Assembly (NCBI RefSeq): GCF_003008695.1
Contig: NZ_PXZT01000002.1
Location: 124,001-188,000 of the forward strand
Reading direction: 5' to 3'
From: Trichococcus alkaliphilus
GTDB lineage: Bacteria > Bacillota > Bacilli > Lactobacillales > Aerococcaceae
DNA length: 64,000 bases
The translations under genes were made by a program, and so were the position numbers. A model generated the notes under the pieces. It did not search any database, was not told where the DNA came from, and was given only the letters and a program-made list of their open reading frames with translations. Shown in pieces: positions 1 through 9,766 of the stretch (position 1 is the stretch's first letter; each line of letters opens with the position of its first letter).

Positions 1-608
1 AACGCCTTCTCGAATCCCGCCGTCCTGGCATTCCCGTGGCCGCCCTTAGTCAGGCTGCCGCCCGTACAATAGGCGATTTTTTTGTAGCCTTTCCCGATCA
101 GGTAGTTTGTGGCTTCAAAAGTCGCCTGTTCCTGATTCGTATAGACTTGCGGAATCGTCGAACCCGGGATCCTTTCGTTGCAGAAAACGATGGGTCCGTA
201 CTCTTGGTACGTTTCGATCACATCGGGATTTCCTTCTACTGAGCACATGATCAATCCTGTGATCACCTGTTGCTTCAGCAGCTCCAGCATCTTCAGTTCG
301 GCCGCCGGATCGTCATAGGTCTGCATGACCAACACGTTGTAGCCCAACAGCTTGCTGTTCTTTTCGATTGAATCCACCAGATAGGAGAAAAATGGATTCG
401 TTATGCGCGAAACCAGGATCCCGATCATGGTGCCTTTTTTGGAACGCAATTGCGTCGCCACCATGCTGGGCGAATAGTTCAATTCATCCATCGCGTCTTT
501 GATGCGTTTCTTCTTATCATCCGAAATATAAGGATGGTCGTTCAGATACCGGGATACTGTCGAAACGGACAGCCCTGCCTTTTTCGCAACGTCCTTGATT
601 GTCGCCAT
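1..608 (-). CDS. LacI/GalR-family transcriptional regulator (3' truncated by window edge)
   Basis: About 202 codons are visible and the reading frame runs off the left edge. The N-terminus is a canonical LacI-type helix-turn-helix (begins MATIKDVAKKAGLSVSTVSR, residues 1-20), followed by the hinge region and the start of a periplasmic-binding-protein-like effector domain (ILVSRITNPFFSYLV, then VLVMQTYDD). The ATG at 608 has a good Shine-Dalgarno (GAGGAG about 8 bases upstream). The family binds DNA as a dimer and responds to a sugar or related ligand; the ligand cannot be told from this part. A strong promoter with two LacI-type pseudo-palindromes lies just upstream, suggesting autoregulation. 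Its target genes are presumably further left, outside the window. Confidence 0.93.
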   Translation of the reverse strand, partial: MATIKDVAKKAGLSVSTVSRYLNDHPYISDDKKKRIKDAMDELNYSPSMVATQLRSKKGTMIGILVSRITNPFFSYLVDSIEKNSKLLGYNVLVMQTYDDPAAELKMLELLKQQVITGLIMCSVEGNPDVIETYQEYGPIVFCNERIPGSTIPQVYTNQEQATFEATNYLIGKGYKKIAYCTGGSLTKGGHGNARTAGFEKA

Positions 609-631
609 GCGAATCACTCCTCTCATATTTG

Positions 632-672
632 TGGTATCGATTTCATAAACAAAGTATAATGGAACCGATTCC
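632..672. promoter_or_regulatory. Two LacI-type operator-like pseudo-palindromes
   Basis: GGAACCGATTCC (661-672) lies between the -35 and -10, and TGGTATCGATTTCA (632-645) lies just downstream of the -10. Both have the central CG typical of LacI/GalR operators. Occupancy of either would block the promoter, so autorepression is inferred. Confidence 0.55.
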
Positions 673-681
673 GAATGTCAA
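653..681 (-). promoter_or_regulatory. Promoter of the LacI-type regulator
   Basis: Reading on the minus strand there is a perfect -35 (TTGACA, 676-681), a 17-base spacer and a near-perfect -10 (TATACT, 653-658), 45 bases upstream of the start codon. Direct sequence match to a sigma-A promoter. Confidence 0.85.
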
Positions 682-702
682 CAGCGATTTTTTAAATTGT
701 TT

Positions 703-726
703 TTTTTATTTTTATTTTTATTTTTA
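703..726. repeat. Hexanucleotide tandem repeat (TTTTTA)x4
   Basis: Four perfect units with A at 708, 714, 720 and 726. It sits 22-45 bases upstream of the -35 of the LacI-type gene, so on that strand it could act as an A-rich UP element, or it may be a slippage-prone tract. Function is inferred. Confidence 0.7.
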
Positions 727-737
727 TGCTGCAGGCT

Positions 738-785
738 CCAAAAAAGAGGAACGAAAGCAATCATCAGATGCCTCCGTTCCTCTTT
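738..785 (-). terminator. Rho-independent terminator after the SDR pseudogene
   Basis: An 11-bp perfect stem (743-753 with 775-785) is followed on the minus strand by a run of T. It lies 13 bases after the stop codon of the broken SDR copy. It is different in sequence from the terminator of the intact SDR at 5186-5222. Confidence 0.75.
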
Positions 786-797
786 CTGCAATTATTC

Positions 798-1291
798 TTA
801 AAGATCGATCACATCGCCGCCGGTCACGCCATAGATTTGGGCGGTCACATAGCTAGCGTTATTGGATGCCAGGAAGACATAGACATGCGCCAGTTCGACC
901 GGCTGCCCCGCTCTTCCCAACAACGTTTTTTGTCCGAATTCCGGCAACGCGCCTTCCGGTTGCCCGTGATCCAGTTGCAACGGCGTCCAGATTGGACCCG
1001 ACGCCACGCCGCTCACGCGGATGCCTTTCTTGGCGAACTGTTTCACCAAACTGATCGTGAAGCTGGCGTTTGCAGATTTGGTGGCGGCATAATCCATCAA
1101 ATGGGCACTCGGATTGTATGCCTAAACCGAGGTTGTCGGGGGATGATGGCGTCCACCACCAGCAAATGCGGTTAAGCAGCTTTCACCAGTCCGAACATCG
1201 AAATGATGTTGCCCACGAGAGTATCTTTGCTTTGTTCCAACGGCAATTACGAGATAGGCTTCCGCACAATTTTTTGTGCGACGTTCAGGAC
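798..1291 (-). pseudogene. Broken SDR oxidoreductase, partial duplicate of the gene at 5294-6187
   Basis: The last 100 codons (798-1100) match the C-terminus of the intact SDR at 5294-6187 with only six amino-acid differences, including the catalytic YAATK motif. Further upstream the nucleotide match continues to about 1291, but with many more changes: a Gln codon has become TAG just before the conserved AYxPSAH segment, and about two extra bases near 1140 shift the frame. The 5' half of the gene, with the NAD-binding glycine motif, is missing. A protein from an internal Met at 1100 would lack the Rossmann nucleotide site, so I call it a pseudogene. It forms a direct repeat with the intact copy and brackets the foreign-looking ATPase gene. 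Confidence 0.88.
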
Positions 1292-1364
1292 TAATGAAAG
1301 ACTATCAAATGTTTGTTCCTTAATTGTATATTTTTTATTAAAATAGCCCTCTACAATAATACTC

Positions 1365-1380
1365 TTAGTTAATTAACTAA
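1365..1380. promoter_or_regulatory. 16-bp perfect palindrome upstream of the RloC-like gene
   Basis: TTAGTTAATTAACTAA is fully self-complementary and lies 45 bases upstream of the ATG at 1425. A -10-like TACAAT (1352-1357) precedes it, so a bound dimer would sit at the expected transcription start. A role as operator is inferred from position and symmetry. Confidence 0.45.
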
Positions 1381-1424
1381 AAACATGTTAATATTAAACA
1401 ATAAAGTATAAAGGAGTTAAGCGA

Positions 1425-3965
1425 ATGATTATTGATGATATTCTTGTTTGGGTACAAAAACTGCCATATTGGCAACAGCTTATATCTGAAAAAATTTTAC
1501 AAGAAAGTCAAATTCAAGAGGAATTTTTGAATGAGATTTACTCCATTTTTAAACAAGAGAATGAACTATTGAATCAATCATTAATTGAAGAAAAAATTAT
1601 TTTCCCAGTAAAGGCAAAAAAAACAACTACGGATACCGCAATCAAATGGAAAGGCTTGGGCAATGTTTCTGGTGTCAATGCTTTGAAATCAAACGAAACT
1701 TTAGAAATTGGTAATCAACTTACTTTAGTCTATGGTGAAAATGGCAGTGGAAAATCTGGTTATACTCGAATTTTAAATAATATATTTATTTCTCGAGGCG
1801 ATAAAAATATATTACCCAATATTTTCAAAGATACTCAACAAGACACCCCTTCTGCAAAGATATTTTTTCAAGGTGGAGATGGTACTTCAGAAGAACTTTT
1901 ATTCCCGGAAGATCGAGACCATTCCTACTGTAAAAAAATTTCTGTTTTTGATTCTACGAGTGCATTAAATGATTTAACCAAAGAGTCAGAGTTAAATTTT
2001 GCTCCCATTGAATTTCAATTTTTTGATCAGTTATTACAGTTTACCAACGAAATAAAGAAGAAATTAGAAAAAGAAATCGATGGAAGAACCTTAGATAATG
2101 ATTTCCCTAATTATTTTGATAAAAACACATCTATAAAGAATTTATTATCTAAATTAGATGGGAATACCGATATAAATGAATTTATGCTACAAGTTAAAAT
2201 AACAGAGGAAGACACTGATTTTTATAACGAAAAAGCAAAACGAAAGGTGCAATTACAAGCTCTTAATTTAGAAGGTAAACTATCTGAATATAACAAATTA
2301 ATCTCCAACATAGAAGACATGAAAGTAAAAATAAAAATCTTGAATGAGCAGTTCGATTCGGAACGATTATCAAAAATGAAAGAATTATTATCTGAAAGGG
2401 AAGCTTATAGAATTTTATCTTTCAAAGAAGGCCTAGAACAATTCGAAAATGAAAAAATTGAAAACTTAGGATCAGCTGAATGGAAAGAATTTATAGTAGC
2501 TGCCCAAAAGTATTATCTGAGTATTGGTAAAGAGATTAACTATTGCATGTTCTGTAAACAGGATTTAGATGGAATTGAAGTAATTGATAAGTATTGGAAA
2601 TATTTACAAAGTAGTGCTGAAAAGAAATCGAACGACCTTAATAGAAATATAAAAAAAACACAGGACAATTTTTCTACTCTTGATTATGAAATCCTTACTA
2701 ATGGAACAAAAATCTATGATTGGCTTCAAGAAAATCAAATTACACTGTTTGAAACTTTAATAGATAGTGAGCAGAAGTTTAAATTATTGAAAGAAAAAAT
2801 TGTTCAATCTCTTCAAACATACATTTGGGCCCCTGAAATAGAAGAACTTTCCTTAGATATAGAAATTTTTAACTCTGCAATAACTTTATTAAATGAAAAG
2901 ATATCTTCATTGGATTCCGAAAAGGTAAAAAGGGAAATTAATGAAATCCAAAGTTTTGAAGATGAATACTTAGATAAATTAAAGGTTGAAAAGTTAATAC
3001 CTAAAATCAAAATATTTATTCTAAACAGTTTGTGGGTTGGCCTCGCCAACAAAAAGAAAATATCTACTCGACAAATAACTTTATATCAAAATCAATTATT
3101 TTCAAAATATGTTACAACTGAATATGTGTCAAAATTCAATGAAGAATGTATAAAACTTAAAGCAAATTTTTCTGCAGAAATATCTCAACGAGGAAGTAAG
3201 GGCACTACTCTTAACAAACTTACTGTAAAAGGGAAAAAAACCGTAGAAATTCTGAGTGAAGGAGAACAAAGGTCTATTGCTTTAGCAAATTTTCTAGCTG
3301 AAACTAGTCTTCACAATGAAAATATATGTGTCATTTTTGATGACCCTGTTTCTTCTTTAGATTATAAGAGGAGAGAGGTAATATCAAACCGTTTAGTTGA
3401 GGAAGCTAAGAAAAAGCAAGTTGTCATTCTAACTCACGATTTGACTTTTTCACTATCAATACAAAATAGATGTTCTGATCAAAAAGTGGATTGTATTTCT
3501 ACGACTATCAGAAAGATCCAAAAAACAACTGGAATTATTGATAACTCAATACCGTGGATTGGAATGCCTGTAAAGCAAAGAATAGCACATTTGAAAAATA
3601 AGCTTCAACAAATAGAAAAAGATTATAAAACTATCACCCCAGAATCAATAGAAACATATCACGAATATCACGAATTAGCTAAACGTTGGTGTGGAGATTT
3701 AAGAGAAACATGGGAAAGAACGATTGAAGAAATATTATTCAATAATTCTGTTCAAAGATTTAGTCCTGCAATACAAACACAAAGGTTAAAATCCGCTACT
3801 TTCACTACAGCACTTTACGATGAAATTGAGAAAGGCATGGGGAACTGTTCTAACTGGGTTCACGATCGAGCATCAGGATTAGGAGAAGATATCCCTTCCC
3901 TCGATGACTTAAAAAAATATCTCATTGAGTGTGAAACTTTTATAAAAAATAACAGACCAAAATAA
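1425..3965 (+). CDS. RloC/PrrC-like ABC-ATPase, candidate anticodon nuclease (phage defence)
   Basis: The 846-residue protein has an SMC/Rad50-like ABC ATPase split by long coiled coil. Walker A is GENGSGKS (104-111), the ABC signature LSEGEQ (610-615), Walker B ICVIFDD (634-640) and an H-loop LTHD with His671. Midway in the coiled-coil region is a CMFC (374-377), placed like the zinc hook of RloC. After the ATPase core, Arg760-x3-Glu764 and His813 resemble the Arg-Glu-His nuclease triad described for PrrC/RloC tRNA anticodon nucleases; the E-to-H distance (49) is longer than in PrrC (32). This fits the AAA_13 family. The start has a strong ribosome site (AAAGGAG) and the gene has its own terminator. 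Base composition is far more AT-rich than the neighbours, indicating horizontal transfer. No restriction-modification genes are adjacent, as is usual for RloC but not PrrC. The ATPase assignment is firm; the nuclease activity is inferred. Confidence 0.85.
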   Translation: MIIDDILVWVQKLPYWQQLISEKILQESQIQEEFLNEIYSIFKQENELLNQSLIEEKIIFPVKAKKTTTDTAIKWKGLGNVSGVNALKSNETLEIGNQLTLVYGENGSGKSGYTRILNNIFISRGDKNILPNIFKDTQQDTPSAKIFFQGGDGTSEELLFPEDRDHSYCKKISVFDSTSALNDLTKESELNFAPIEFQFFDQLLQFTNEIKKKLEKEIDGRTLDNDFPNYFDKNTSIKNLLSKLDGNTDINEFMLQVKITEEDTDFYNEKAKRKVQLQALNLEGKLSEYNKLISNIEDMKVKIKILNEQFDSERLSKMKELLSEREAYRILSFKEGLEQFENEKIENLGSAEWKEFIVAAQKYYLSIGKEINYCMFCKQDLDGIEVIDKYWKYLQSSAEKKSNDLNRNIKKTQDNFSTLDYEILTNGTKIYDWLQENQITLFETLIDSEQKFKLLKEKIVQSLQTYIWAPEIEELSLDIEIFNSAITLLNEKISSLDSEKVKREINEIQSFEDEYLDKLKVEKLIPKIKIFILNSLWVGLANKKKISTRQITLYQNQLFSKYVTTEYVSKFNEECIKLKANFSAEISQRGSKGTTLNKLTVKGKKTVEILSEGEQRSIALANFLAETSLHNENICVIFDDPVSSLDYKRREVISNRLVEEAKKKQVVILTHDLTFSLSIQNRCSDQKVDCISTTIRKIQKTTGIIDNSIPWIGMPVKQRIAHLKNKLQQIEKDYKTITPESIETYHEYHELAKRWCGDLRETWERTIEEILFNNSVQRFSPAIQTQRLKSATFTTALYDEIEKGMGNCSNWVHDRASGLGEDIPSLDDLKKYLIECETFIKNNRPK

Positions 3966-3976
3966 ATACTTGTACT

Positions 3977-4009
3977 AAGCAGTCTTGTAATATCTAGATT
4001 GCTTTTTTA
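3977..4009 (+). terminator. Terminator of the RloC-like gene
   Basis: A nine-pair stem (AAGCAGTCT at 3977-3985 with AGATTGCTT at 3996-4004, one G-U pair) is followed by six T, starting 12 bases after the stop codon. Confidence 0.8.
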
Positions 4010-4285
4010 TTTGGAGAAACAATTTTGAAACAAAAGATTCGCAATAGTTTATGTACTAATACTTTCATATATATTTTTATCCATAACAACACTTCCCAAT
4101 CGAATTGAGAAGTGTCCAAATTGGAATATTCAGAATGTCAATTTTTTGAATATTATGAAGATCTGCGAGTTTTCTTTAGACCTGGTTTTGCATATTTTCC
4201 TAGTATTTAACAGCTATAATTCCCCTCCCAACAACAATATTTCTATCTTCTTCTCTGCCCTCTTTGGTAAGAATGATTATATACT
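4010..4285. other. AT-rich intergenic stretch with one long hairpin
   Basis: No gene is recognised. CACTTCCCAAT (4090-4100) and ATTGAGAAGTG (4104-4114) form an 11-bp stem with one mismatch and a three-base loop, without a T-run on either strand. Composition resembles the ATPase gene, so this is probably part of the same imported segment. Confidence 0.5.
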
Positions 4286-4861
4286 TTAAAAATTAGTGTC
4301 GCGAAGCTCCTCAGCAGCATCGGCCAACCAGTTTACGTTGCGGATAAGCGCTCTGCCTTGCAGAATCAGGTCTGCCTGGTTGGTTTGAAGGATGTGTTCG
4401 CACAAGCCAGGATTGTCCAGTAGCCCTACCGTGGAAACCGGAATCGAAACAACTTCTTTCATCGCAGTGGTGTAAGGGACTTGATAGCCTGGACGGACGG
4501 GGATGTTCGGTTTCTTATCAATAAGCCCGCCTGTGGAAACGTCGATGCAATCGATGCCGCCTTTTTCAAGCCATTTCCCGATTGTTTTCCAATCAACCAA
4601 GCTGTTTTGTTTTTCTGAATCATCATATGCCGTCAGGGATAACCTGATCCAAAAGGAACTATTGAAGGCGCCGCGTATTTGCTCGATGATTTCTTTTGCA
4701 AACAGGTAACGGTTTTCCAGCGAACCAGCGTATACATCCGTCCGTTCGTTGGTCAACGGGGACAAAAATTGATTGATCAGATAGCCGTGTGCGCCGTACA
4801 GCTCGATCATGTCGACGCTAGCAAATGCGGTACGTTCTGAAGCTGAATCCTCATAAGTCAT
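4286..4861 (-). pseudogene. Truncated old-yellow-enzyme (YqjM-like NADH:flavin oxidoreductase) fragment
   Basis: 191 codons match the second half of YqjM-type ene-reductases: a HAAHGYLIHEFLSPL-like block (here ELYGAHGYLINQFLSPL), then SLENRYLFAKEI, the RLSLTAYDD strand, STGGLI, PGYQVPY and the C-terminal FMN-phosphate-binding segments GLLDNP and DLILQGRALIRN. About 150 N-terminal residues of the TIM barrel, including the flavin-contacting first strands, are missing. The first His of the substrate-binding HxxH pair is Tyr. The family's C-terminal arginine-finger tail is also absent. There is no ribosome site before the Met at 4861. I conclude it is a decaying fragment. Confidence 0.8.
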
Positions 4862-5185
4862 GGATATTTATTGGCTGGCAAACCGAATATATTCTGATAC
4901 TTAGTGAGGATTTTTTTACACTGATGGAGGCTATCCGAAACCATGGGCCTGGTCCATGGTTTTCATTTCCACAAAATAAAAACTCTATCCCTTTTGATAT
5001 GGATAGAGCATGTAATACGCCAGTTTTTTTTAAATTGGACTTATTTTTTATGATCCTTCTGTTCCAAATCAGGTAGAGGACGAATGCAGCCAAGACAATG
5101 ACAATCGGCAGAGCCACAAACAGCGGTATGCTGATGGGCTACAGCATACCGCTGGATACCGCCGTTGAGCGCAAAAGTAAAGACG
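4862..5185. other. Decayed intergenic region with three strong hairpins and a membrane-segment remnant
   Basis: On the minus strand a short reading frame encodes one hydrophobic stretch (LPIVIVLAAFVLYLIW, near 5115-5065), which looks like the remnant of a small membrane protein; it has no convincing start. Perfect inverted repeats are AAACCATGG/CCATGGTTT (4938-4946/4954-4962), CTCTATCC/GGATAGAG (4983-4990/5001-5008) and a 13-bp pair CAGCGGTATGCTG/CAGCATACCGCTG (5121-5133/5142-5154). Confidence 0.5.
4973..5008 (-). terminator. Minus-strand terminator in the decayed region
   Basis: An eight-pair perfect stem (4983-4990 with 5001-5008) is followed on the minus strand by TTTTTATTTT. The gene it once served appears to be lost. 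Confidence 0.65.
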
Positions 5186-5222
5186 AAAAAAAAGGACAAA
5201 AGCACTTGGATGCTCTCGTCCT
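5186..5222 (-). terminator. Terminator of the SDR oxidoreductase
   Basis: A 12-pair stem (5193-5204 with 5211-5222, two G-U pairs), six-base loop and eight T on the minus strand, about 70 bases after the stop at 5294. Confidence 0.85.
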
Positions 5223-5293
5223 TCCTTCTTCTTGTTTTGAAATTATTTTTTCTGAATAGTATCTTCAACAATTTATGATCGAAGATTCATAAA

Positions 5294-6187
5294 TCACAGA
5301 TCGATCACATCGCCGCCGGTCACGCCATAGATTTGGGCGGTCACATAGCTGGCGTTGTTGGATGCCAGGAAGACGTAGACATGCGCCAGTTCGACCGGCT
5401 GTCCCGCCCTTCCCAACAAGGTTTTCTGCCCGAATTCCGGCAAAGCGCCTTCCGATTGCCCATGATCCAACTGCAACGGCGTCCAGATTGGTCCTGGTGC
5501 CACCCCGTTCACGCGGATGCCTTTCTTGGCAAATTGCTTCGCCAAGCTGATCGTGAAGCTGGCAATTGCGGATTTGGTGGCGGCATAATCCATCAAATGG
5601 GCACTTGGATCGTATGCCTGAATGGATGTTGTCGTGATTATGGCGCCTCCCGCCGGCAGATGCGGTTCTGCAGCTTTCACCAGTCCGAACATCGAGATGA
5701 TGTTGACTGTGAACGTATCTTTGACCTGTTCCAACGGCAATTCCGAAATGGACTCCCGCGCAATCTGCTGTGCGGCATTCAATACAAGTGTGTCCAGACC
5801 GCCCAATGCTTCGACGGTTTTATCGATTATTTCTTGGTATTTACTCTCATCGCGAAGGTCATATGGAAGCAAGACAGCTTTCCTGCCGGCCTTCTTTATG
5901 TATTCGGCAACTTCGTCAGCATCGCGTTCTTCCCCAGGGAAAAATTGGATCGCCACATCGGCGCCTTCTCTGGCATAAGCGATCGCTGCAGCTCGTCCGA
6001 TTCCGGAATCGCCACCAGTGATCAATATACGGCGATTCTCCAACAAGTGGTTGCCTACGTAGCTTTCCTCCCCGCAATCGGGTTTCGGTAGCATCTTATC
6101 TTGCAAAACAGGGGTGTCTTGATCCTGATCTGTAAATTTTCCAGTGTGATACAACTCTCTTGGATCCTTCAAAATAGGTTCAGCCAT
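5294..6187 (-). CDS. SDR-family oxidoreductase (YhdF/YdaD-like general stress dehydrogenase)
   Basis: The 297-residue protein is a classical short-chain dehydrogenase with the extended N-terminus of the YhdF/YdaD/YghA group (around 50 residues before the Rossmann fold). The nucleotide-binding motif is TGGDSGIG (57-64), catalytic Ser188 lies in TTTSIQAY and YxxxK is YAATK (201-205). The C-terminus GVTGGDVIDL is typical of this subgroup. Members are NAD(P)-dependent dehydrogenases of uncertain substrate, often under general stress control in bacilli. The ATG at 6187 has an AAAGGAG site. It is monocistronic with its own terminator. A damaged copy of its 3' half lies at 798-1291 in the same orientation. 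Confidence 0.93.
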   Translation of the reverse strand: MAEPILKDPRELYHTGKFTDQDQDTPVLQDKMLPKPDCGEESYVGNHLLENRRILITGGDSGIGRAAAIAYAREGADVAIQFFPGEERDADEVAEYIKKAGRKAVLLPYDLRDESKYQEIIDKTVEALGGLDTLVLNAAQQIARESISELPLEQVKDTFTVNIISMFGLVKAAEPHLPAGGAIITTTSIQAYDPSAHLMDYAATKSAIASFTISLAKQFAKKGIRVNGVAPGPIWTPLQLDHGQSEGALPEFGQKTLLGRAGQPVELAHVYVFLASNNASYVTAQIYGVTGGDVIDL

Positions 6188-8034: not shown

Positions 8035-8115
8035 CACCCAATTTGTAACATGCGAGCAGCAAGTGCACCGCCCATGAATTATCTTTTGGAAGTCACAAGA
8101 GTTATGTAAGGATAG

Positions 8116-8454
8116 TTACTTACTGACTAAATAGAGTAAAATACCTGCAATTAGCCCACCACGAAGTGCAGCCGATAATAAGTATAGTGATTTTTGAAAA
8201 CTTTTTCCTCCTAACAATCCATACACAAATATACCTACGCCAGTTGCTAATCCCATATCAACAAAAGCTCCTCCAGTTTGGTGTATAAGAGAAAAAGTCA
8301 TTCCATGGTTCAGTAACCAAATTGGACCAACAATTAGAAAAGCCGACAAAAAACCTCCAACTACTTTCCAGCGGTTTACCAACCTTCCCCATACTTGTAT
8401 GATAGCGAAAGGTAATATAAATCCGCCTATAATTGTTAATATTTCTCTATACAT
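8116..8454 (-). CDS. Small membrane protein, second of a paralogous pair (Lin0368-like?)
   Basis: I choose the ATG at 8454 (112 residues) because it has an AAGGAAGGGGG site 6-8 bases upstream; a start at 8478 would lack one. The protein is very hydrophobic with about four membrane segments (ILTIIGGFILPFAII, VVGGFLSAFLIVGPIW, VDMGLATGVGIFVYGLL, C-terminal GLIAGILLYLV). A GPIWLLNH motif and a later GGAFVDMG motif are shared with the upstream neighbour, so the two are paralogs. Tandem pairs of about 120 residues resemble the Lin0368-type putative glycerol transporter subunits of Listeria, from memory and not checked. It overlaps the end of the upstream gene by 8 bases, suggesting translational coupling and a heteromeric membrane complex. 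Confidence 0.75.
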   Translation of the reverse strand: MYREILTIIGGFILPFAIIQVWGRLVNRWKVVGGFLSAFLIVGPIWLLNHGMTFSLIHQTGGAFVDMGLATGVGIFVYGLLGGKSFQKSLYLLSAALRGGLIAGILLYLVSK

Positions 8455-8803
8455 CGGGAGCCCCCTTCCTTCTTTCAAAGTAGTGTGAAACTACTGCTGC
8501 AAACACTGCACCGATTGATAAAAGAATAATTGTCGGTAATGATGAAAAGCTATTATTAACCCCTTTAGATAAAACATCTCTCGTAAAAACAGCAATCGCG
8601 ATGCCAGCTCCCATATCGACTGTCGCTGCCTCACTGTCTTGATAGATTAGACCCTTGTAGTGAACAATATACCAAACGGGTCCAATTATTAATATTGCCG
8701 CTGCAAAACCAGCATAAATTCCCAAAATGGAAACATAACTCCAAAGGTAAGGGACCAAAAAACCAGCTAAACAATACGCCAAAAATGTTCTGATATAGTT
8801 CAA
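8447..8803 (-). CDS. Small membrane protein, first of a paralogous pair (Lin0368-like?)
   Basis: About 118 residues from a TTG start at 8803 (AGGGGG site 7 bases upstream); no in-frame ATG fits better, and a TTG at 8827 would add eight residues. Membrane segments are seen at the N-terminus (FLAYCLAGFLVPYLW), around AAAILIIGPVWYIVHY, at GAGIAIAVF and at LPTIILLSIGAVFAAVV. The motifs GPVWYIVH and AATVDMG match GPIWLLNH and GAFVDMG of the downstream gene. The shared acidic VDM within a membrane context could be a functional site. The function is not known to me beyond the possible Lin0368 similarity. A long inverted repeat upstream (8875-8926) may be its operator. Confidence 0.75.
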   Translation of the reverse strand: MNYIRTFLAYCLAGFLVPYLWSYVSILGIYAGFAAAILIIGPVWYIVHYKGLIYQDSEAATVDMGAGIAIAVFTRDVLSKGVNNSFSSLPTIILLSIGAVFAAVVSHYFERRKGAPDV

Positions 8804-8874
8804 AGACAACACCCCCTGATACCACAAATAATAACATGAGTCCTCTTGTTAATCAGTCAAATTGTTCATTTAAT

Positions 8875-8926
8875 AACACCGTTTACAATTTGTTCACGAA
8901 AGTTAATAATTATTGTAAACAGTGTT
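8875..8926. promoter_or_regulatory. 15-bp spaced inverted repeat upstream of the membrane-protein pair
   Basis: AACACCGTTTACAAT (8875-8889) and its near-exact reverse complement at 8912-8926 (one mismatch) are 22 bases apart. There is no T-run, so it reads as a regulator site or two half sites about 3.5 helical turns apart, upstream of the gene pair starting at 8803. Confidence 0.5.
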
Positions 8927-9018
8927 CTAAGAACGGAGATATTCTGCTATTAAGTTAAGGCTTGACTAACTATCCATTCTCCCCTATTGAATTTGAGACT
9001 GCCCCTCATTTCCATAAA

Positions 9019-9047
9019 AAAAAGACCCCGCTCTTTCGATTGGGATC
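9019..9047 (-). terminator. Terminator of the 42-residue protein gene
   Basis: A GC-rich stem (GACCCC with GGGATC plus flanking pairs, GAAA-type loop) followed by eight T on the minus strand, about 22 bases after the stop at 9069. Confidence 0.7.
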
Positions 9048-9068
9048 TCCAAAATATCATAGATTAAC

Positions 9069-9197
9069 TTACTTATTATAAATCTTTGGACCTTTGCGCA
9101 TGTTCTTAATATCATTTTTCGGCGTGTCGATTTGTTTAGACCTTCCGCCGCCTTGTTTATTCTTGATTATTTCTAACATTTTTTCTTTTGGACTCAC
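9069..9197 (-). CDS. Small conserved-looking basic protein (42 residues)
   Basis: An open frame from GTG at 9197 to TAA at 9069. It begins MSPKEKMLEIIKNK, continues with a GGGRSKQ turn and ends MRKGPKIYNK; about a third of residues are Lys or Arg. An AAAGGCGG ribosome site lies 8 bases upstream and a terminator follows directly, so the unit looks like a genuine monocistronic gene. The pattern (short amphipathic helix, glycine linker, MRKGPKI-NK tail) is reminiscent of tiny hypothetical proteins seen in other Lactobacillales, from memory. The high positive charge suggests binding to nucleic acid or the ribosome; this is inference. Confidence 0.75.
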   Translation of the reverse strand: MSPKEKMLEIIKNKQGGGRSKQIDTPKNDIKNMRKGPKIYNK

Positions 9198-9255
9198 TGT
9201 TTACACCGCCTTTGTTGATGGAACACTCCATATTTTCATTCTATTGAATTGATGC

Positions 9256-9289
9256 CATAAAAAAAGCATCAGCAAAATGCCGATGCTTT
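9256..9289 (-). terminator. Terminator of rplM-rpsI
   Basis: AAAGCATC (9263-9270) pairs with GATGCTTT (9282-9289) and is followed on the minus strand by seven T, downstream of the rpsI stop at 9374. Confidence 0.85.
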
Positions 9290-9373
9290 AAGGCTGTTAA
9301 TTGATTTGTCAAATTGGTCTTTTGAACCAAATTGAAGCAAAAAACTTTTTTAAAAACGTTGATACAATAAATA

Positions 9374-9766
9374 TTAACGTTTTGAGAATTGTGATGCTTT
9401 ACGAGCTTTTTTCAAACCTGGTTTCTTACGTTCAACCATACGTGGGTCACGTGTTAACAGACCAGCTGCTTTCAATGGTCCGCGGAAGTCAGGATCTACT
9501 TCTAATAATGCACGAGAGATACCGTGACGAGCTGCTCCAGCTTGTCCAGTGAATCCGCCGCCGTTTACGTTAACGAAGATATCGTAGCTACCTAAAGTAC
9601 CTGTAAGGTTTAAAGGTTGTTTGATTACTTCATATAAGTAAGCGAATGGGATGTATTCTTCCATGTCTTTTTTGTTGAAGATGATTTTACCTGTTCCAGG
9701 TAATAAACGTACGCGTGCAGTCGAATTCTTACGACGACCAGTTGCGATATATTGTGCTTGTGCCAA
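9374..9766 (-). CDS. rpsI: 30S ribosomal protein S9
   Basis: 130 residues, the usual length. It has the conserved N-terminus [20 protein letters not shown], the central [19 protein letters not shown] block and the basic tail [17 protein letters not shown], whose last Lys-Arg reaches the P-site tRNA. The start is a TTG at 9766 with a strong GGAGGG site. It is the second gene of the rplM-rpsI operon, 13 bases after rplM. Confidence 0.98.

Follow-up and report, generated by a model that had tools for sequence, protein, structure and literature searches.

The open reading frame at 1425..3965 (forward strand, stop included) probably encodes a stand-alone RNase of the RloC type that acts on tRNA, as judged from its motifs and its relatives. 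It lies in a 64,000-nucleotide stretch of DNA, which we call the window. We regard its product as an ordinary member of the RloC family and thus as a protein of known kind. The gene itself appears to be a horizontally acquired single-gene insertion of foreign composition, placed at a site whose defence genes change from genome to genome in the genus.

Motifs and conserved residues of the predicted protein

The frame begins with ATG and is intact over 846 codons. It matches Pfam AAA_13 above the cut-off (E 9.4e-13) and is the sole AAA_13 match in the genome at E 1e-5; the Pfam SMC_N model aligns to residues 235-673 with 37.8 bits, just below the 40-bit cut-off. Four PADLOC PDC-S06 models match over the full length of the protein, with E values from 1.8e-159 (model PDLC04891, residues 2-842) to 4.4e-74.

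All motifs that the first-pass annotation had picked out by eye sit at the residues it named. These are, on the forward strand, Walker A (GENGSGKS, residues 104-111, 1734..1757), a zinc-hook-like CxxC (CMFC, residues 374-377, 2544..2555), the ABC signature (LSEGEQ, residues 610-615, 3252..3269), Walker B (VIFDDP, residues 636-641, 3330..3347) and the H-loop (T670-H671 in the motif LTHD, residues 669-672; 3432..3437). They are followed by a C-terminal putative nuclease domain (residues 690-846, 3492..3962) that carries R760 (3702..3704), E764 (3714..3716) and H813 (3861..3863) in the arrangement Arg-x3-Glu-x48-His. The RloC-like architecture proposed in that annotation is supported: the protein has the ABC motifs, its ATPase is interrupted by a CxxC insert, and a C-terminal triad follows. 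The insert reads as helical, and the flanks of the CxxC, which would make up the putative coiled coil, are poor in proline, with one proline in residues 200-370 and two in residues 380-560.

We aligned the protein first with 18 full-length homologues and next with 16 others, drawn from a second collection, and one shared sequence; pooling gave 34 sequences (our protein and 33 homologues with 18-51% identity to it) from records of Bacillota, Bacteroidota and Pseudomonadota and from prophage-like contigs. The plasmid loci in this set were drawn from 17 that were fetched out of 191 matching records, of which 15 were aligned and two partial ones (L051 and L052) dropped; 15 of 34 viral-contig loci were aligned, the remainder being broken, partial or matches to the ATPase stretch alone. 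Both cysteines of the hook motif, C374 and C377, are invariant (34/34), as are R760, E764 and H813, which bears out both the zinc-hook-like CxxC between Walker A and signature and the Arg-Glu-His triad claimed earlier. Of the 172 query columns that start at residue 675, only G703, R760, E764 and H813 are 34/34, so that on this alignment the C-terminal domain has the triad proposed by eye as its conserved core. R778 (3756..3758) is a further conserved basic residue, present in 33 of the 34 sequences. The C-terminal domain (690-846) is matched by none of the Pfam or PHROGs models, and its profile found no credible match among PDB sequences (one chance hit, E 3.5).

Among PDB sequences the ATPase part is most closely related to Rad50 and AriA, which together with the CxxC insert would be expected of a DNA repair or DNA-tethering protein like Rad50 or SbcC that lacks nuclease activity. 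However, the invariant residues past the H-loop are of catalytic types, and according to PMC2610378 Rad50, SbcC and T4 gp46 have no counterpart of the RloC C-region. The patchy distribution of the family and the defence hotspot in which the gene lies (both below) also argue against this alternative, which we consider very improbable.

The insertion site and the distribution of relatives

Gene 1425-3965 has a GC content of 0.299. This is the lowest value in the window when all 44 ORFs that do not overlap and have 150 aa or more are compared, this gene being one of them (mean 0.460, sd 0.048). The strong AT bias noted at first reading is therefore real, and the foreign composition supports the horizontal acquisition that had been proposed with it. 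A ribosome-binding-like AAAGGAG, inferred from the sequence, lies at 1410..1416 (forward strand), 8 bases before the ATG. The terminator ascribed to the gene corresponds to a terminator-like hairpin at 3977..4004 (forward strand; predicted −10.0 kcal/mol) that runs into T6; a consensus terminator scan did not list this hairpin because the loop limit of the scan is 8. The foreign composition, and the decay of a flanking gene copy described below, might be taken to suggest that the gene is a degenerate or silent copy. Nevertheless, its 846-codon frame is unbroken, the ATPase and triad residues are all present and both expression-like signals accompany it, so that degeneration seems a quite remote prospect.

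Homology to relatives on the left flank stops at 1287 (against G003) and homology on the right begins at 4146 (against G010), which delimits a segment of ~2.9 kb (1288..4145) that contains this gene alone and is absent from the site in relatives. In two genomes of the same genus (G003 and G011) the sequence corresponding to window positions 3-1287 continues directly into an SDR gene with no insert, and the coordinates of G007 also read as uninterrupted at the site. In G010 and G005 the DNA to the right of ~4146 and ~4242, respectively, is collinear with the window, and between it and the left flank lie other genes. According to PADLOC and Pfam matches, the site holds genes for the S, M and R subunits of type I restriction-modification (R-M) in G010 and for MzaB, MzaC and MzaE plus a cytosine methylase and Vsr in G012. 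In G005 it holds genes for a type II restriction enzyme together with a cytosine methylase and Vsr. Other genes occupy it in G001 and G009, and the left flank was unmatched in G002, G004 and G008. Since the site is uninterrupted in some relatives and holds R-M or Mza genes in three, the interval between the LacI-type regulator and the SDR gene (window 1288-5293) is, by these sequence comparisons, a defence hotspot within the 13 genomes of the genus.

A 10-base match, CAATTTTTTG, occurs near both edges of the insert (1267 and 4139) and is too AT-rich to weigh. At the left edge lies a decayed partial SDR gene (802..1296, reverse strand) that duplicates 5298-5790 of the SDR gene at 5294-6187 (300 nt at 91% and 155 nt at 78%). 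These duplicates bracket the insertion and are possibly a footprint of recombination.

Nine neighbouring genes were scanned with PADLOC and none gave a restriction or modification match (0/9), in agreement with the earlier remark that no modification enzymes adjoin the gene. The nine encode an Oxidored_FMN fragment, SDR, ABM, nitroreductase, MarR, DUF6905, LacI-type, amylase and PTS proteins, where the labels MarR and amylase rest on matches to HTH and GlgB-like models. The Oxidored_FMN protein (4289-4861, reverse strand) covers model positions 156-340 of 342 and looks like the product of a truncated gene; in G010 and G005 the hotspot likewise carries related pieces.

The solitary position of the gene is no obstacle to an RloC-type function, because the RloC of A. 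baylyi is described as functioning without its R-M genes (PMC3874168). By analogy with the RloC work reported in PMC2610378 and PMC3874168, the nuclease would be kept silent by the ATPase and the zinc-hook coil, and this silencing would be relieved by DNA ends or by other damage that a phage causes to DNA. The C-terminal domain would then cut tRNA in the anticodon loop, which would stop translation and abort the infection. An R-M partner in cis would be unnecessary for such a response. Elsewhere in this genome type I S genes occur at two places, so help in trans might be possible.

Among 148 other relatives from the family and order, a near full-length relative was found in one (G019, 49% identity) and an N-terminal piece of a relative in another (G027). 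At E 1e-30 the family model matches 4 of 398 genomes of the phylum, the present one included. On plasmids 191 records match, 157 of them over at least 80% of the query, and the 50,697 INPHARED phage records gave no match at E 1e-5. Viral contigs yielded 34 loci at the tblastn threshold, some over the ATPase stretch alone, and a search of genome contigs with the single query sequence yielded one locus. As far as these searches reach, the family has a patchy and mobile distribution of the kind shown by defence genes.

We surveyed the neighbourhoods of the 15 full-length plasmid loci, of which 14 are annotated and four have clear defence neighbours. The homologue sits between hsdS and hsdR in L039, adjoins a BsuBI/PstI-type (type II) restriction pair in L045 and precedes dsr1 in L044; in L038 a DNA methyltransferase and a DEAD-box helicase come after it, an arrangement that we read as type III-like. 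At the remaining plasmid loci it stands alone or amid transposition, regulatory or unknown genes. The relative in G019 (L228) lies near a phage integrase beside rpsI (S9), at 8052-9344 and 9373-9762. The window's own rpsI (9377-9766) is ~5.4 kb from the gene studied here, with no integrase between them among the genes scanned.

Two sets of RloC-like sequences

The definition of RloC given in PMC2610378 comprises ABC motifs, a CxxC insert, a length of 658-897 aa and the arrangement Arg-x3-Glu-x36-52-His. With a Glu-His gap of 48 and a length of 846 aa, our protein lies within it. The first-pass annotation had taken the long Glu-His spacing as a possible mark of a new, divergent nuclease subtype. 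That idea fails, since 48 is inside the range published in 2008 and all 34 aligned long-set proteins (defined next) have gaps of 48-52.

The RloC-like sequences that we collected fall into two sets, a short one with Glu-His gaps of 36-47 (n=39) and a long one with gaps of 48-52 (n=34, including our protein). In the short set the hook Cys lies at 236-335, Ser precedes the triad His in 39/39 and the Glu is kept in 37/39, with Asp in the other two. In the long set the hook Cys lies at 373-398 in 19 aligned proteins and at 285 in the N-terminally cut L075, and the conserved R778 is a feature of this set. The short set was gathered with the other PDC-S06 models of PADLOC and a scan of viral contigs; it represents 39 of 43 loci tried (L059, L060, L066 and L067 were dropped by the ORF filter) and contains near-identical sequences, which were not thinned. 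One of the dropped loci, L067 (617 aa), has the hook and no Arg-x3-Glu. In a tree that contains no PrrC, the PrrC segments having been removed by the filter, and just two intermediate sequences, and that is unrooted in any biological sense, all 34 long sequences group with L035 with a support of 0.954. L035, L186 and L187 are further relatives within PDC-S06 in which a His follows Arg-x3-Glu (gaps of 51-54 by motif) and whose C-termini are otherwise different, and they are possibly a third group.

The joint range of the gaps in the two sets, 36-52, is exactly the published one, which suggests without proving it that both sets were already represented in the 2008 list. The definition in PMC2610378 spans two sets of sequences, and the assayed proteins appear, by their published residue numbers, to belong to one of the two. 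The Geobacillus kaustophilus RloC, for which that paper gives the residues R692, E696, H737 and C291 (a gap of 40), fits the short set by those numbers, and the Acinetobacter RloC (826 aa, hook C314; PMC3874168) probably belongs there too by its hook position. As the assayed RloCs are placed in the short set by their residue numbers, and as the literature searched yielded no assayed long-set protein, the long set seems to be without a published enzyme assay. Being compact and stand-alone and lying in a natural defence hotspot, the present gene offers a clean test case for tRNase activity in this set.

We compared C-terminal profiles with HHalign to gauge how closely the sets are related. The long set scored Probab 8.0 against the short set and 0.4 against five PrrCs, and the short set scored 19.5 against PrrC. 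Against an enlarged short set the long set reached 18.2, compared with a maximum of 16.3 in 100 column shuffles and 14.9 for the reversed profile; in this enlarged set 15 of 80 C-termini lack Arg-x3-Glu-x30..56-His, two of them owing to Asp in place of Glu. The local alignment of the two sets covers the His end and not Arg-x3-Glu. A signal between the long and short C-terminal profiles thus appears to exist, but it is small. Set CC, intended as a negative control, turned out RloC-like and did not serve that purpose. Although RloC and PrrC are placed together among HEPN proteins in PMC3710099, the HEPN motif R-x4-6-H does not occur in our protein and is absent from 25/34 long-set proteins; it is present in 9/34 of the long set, 23/39 of the short set and 5/5 PrrCs.

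The weak profile link leaves some room for a DNA-triggered RNase of the same build with a substrate other than anticodons (mRNA, rRNA or phage RNA), in which the long set would have kept Arg-x3-Glu and His while the pocket was reshaped. The Ser before the His in all 39 short-set proteins and not in ours, the R778 peculiar to the long set (33/34) and the lack of long-set RloC activity in the literature searched all accord with this reading. Nevertheless, each of the three triad mutations is reported to have abolished the activity of the G. kaustophilus RloC (PMC2610378), and the same Arg, Glu and His are kept here in the same order and at a published spacing. We therefore judge a change of substrate to be distinctly less probable than the tRNA-cutting RloC that we favour. 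A broader form of the idea is that the long set is a separate kind of hook-ABC RNase, with an active site of R760, E764, R778 and H813 and no HEPN R-x4-6-H, which may cut RNA other than anticodon loops, such that the name RloC covers two enzymes with a shared switch and different targets; this is speculative and, in our estimate, only slightly less doubtful.

Comparison with known systems

Like our protein, Rad50 and SbcC combine an ABC head with a CxxC hook insert, but as described in PMC2610378 they are without the C-terminal nuclease region. PrrC likewise joins an ABC ATPase to a C-terminal Arg-x3-Glu...His. However, it is about half the size and has no hook insert, in the five fetched loci it has an hsdS-like gene on one side and an hsdR-like gene on the other, its Glu-His gap in those loci is 31-38 rather than 48, and it keeps R-x4-6-H (5/5), which our protein is missing. 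Membership in PrrC was rejected given the length of 846 aa against ~341-416 aa, the lack of linked R-M genes and the lack of a match to the PADLOC PrrC model at E up to 1, a model that 4/5 short-set proteins do match.

PDC-S06 is, according to PMC11811056, a single-gene candidate of Payne et al. 2021, whose proteins, as that paper puts it, often bear another DefenseFinder label; such genes have already been flagged in the DefenseFinder and PADLOC literature (as in PMC11811056, PMC11514479 and PMC12322248). Our protein shares full-length model matches with this class, but the label is heterogeneous, as short-set proteins match other PDC-S06 models best. It spans at least two sets that differ in hook position, in Glu-His gap and in the residue before the His.

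The nearest known system is RloC as defined by Davidov and Kaufmann in 2008, of which the proteins from G. kaustophilus and A. baylyi have been assayed. Our protein differs from these in its hook position (Cys374 versus Cys291 in Geobacillus and Cys314 in Acinetobacter), in its Glu-His gap (48 versus 40 in the Geobacillus RloC) and in the ~70 additional residues that it carries ahead of Walker A relative to the short set. It also has Val (V812) rather than Ser before the triad His, a Ser that the text of PMC2610378 describes as 'often' found in RloC and not as required. It nonetheless shares with RloC the CxxC-split ABC ATPase, the Arg-x3-Glu-x36-52-His arrangement and the length range of the published definition, and like most RloCs in that account it is unlinked to R-M genes.
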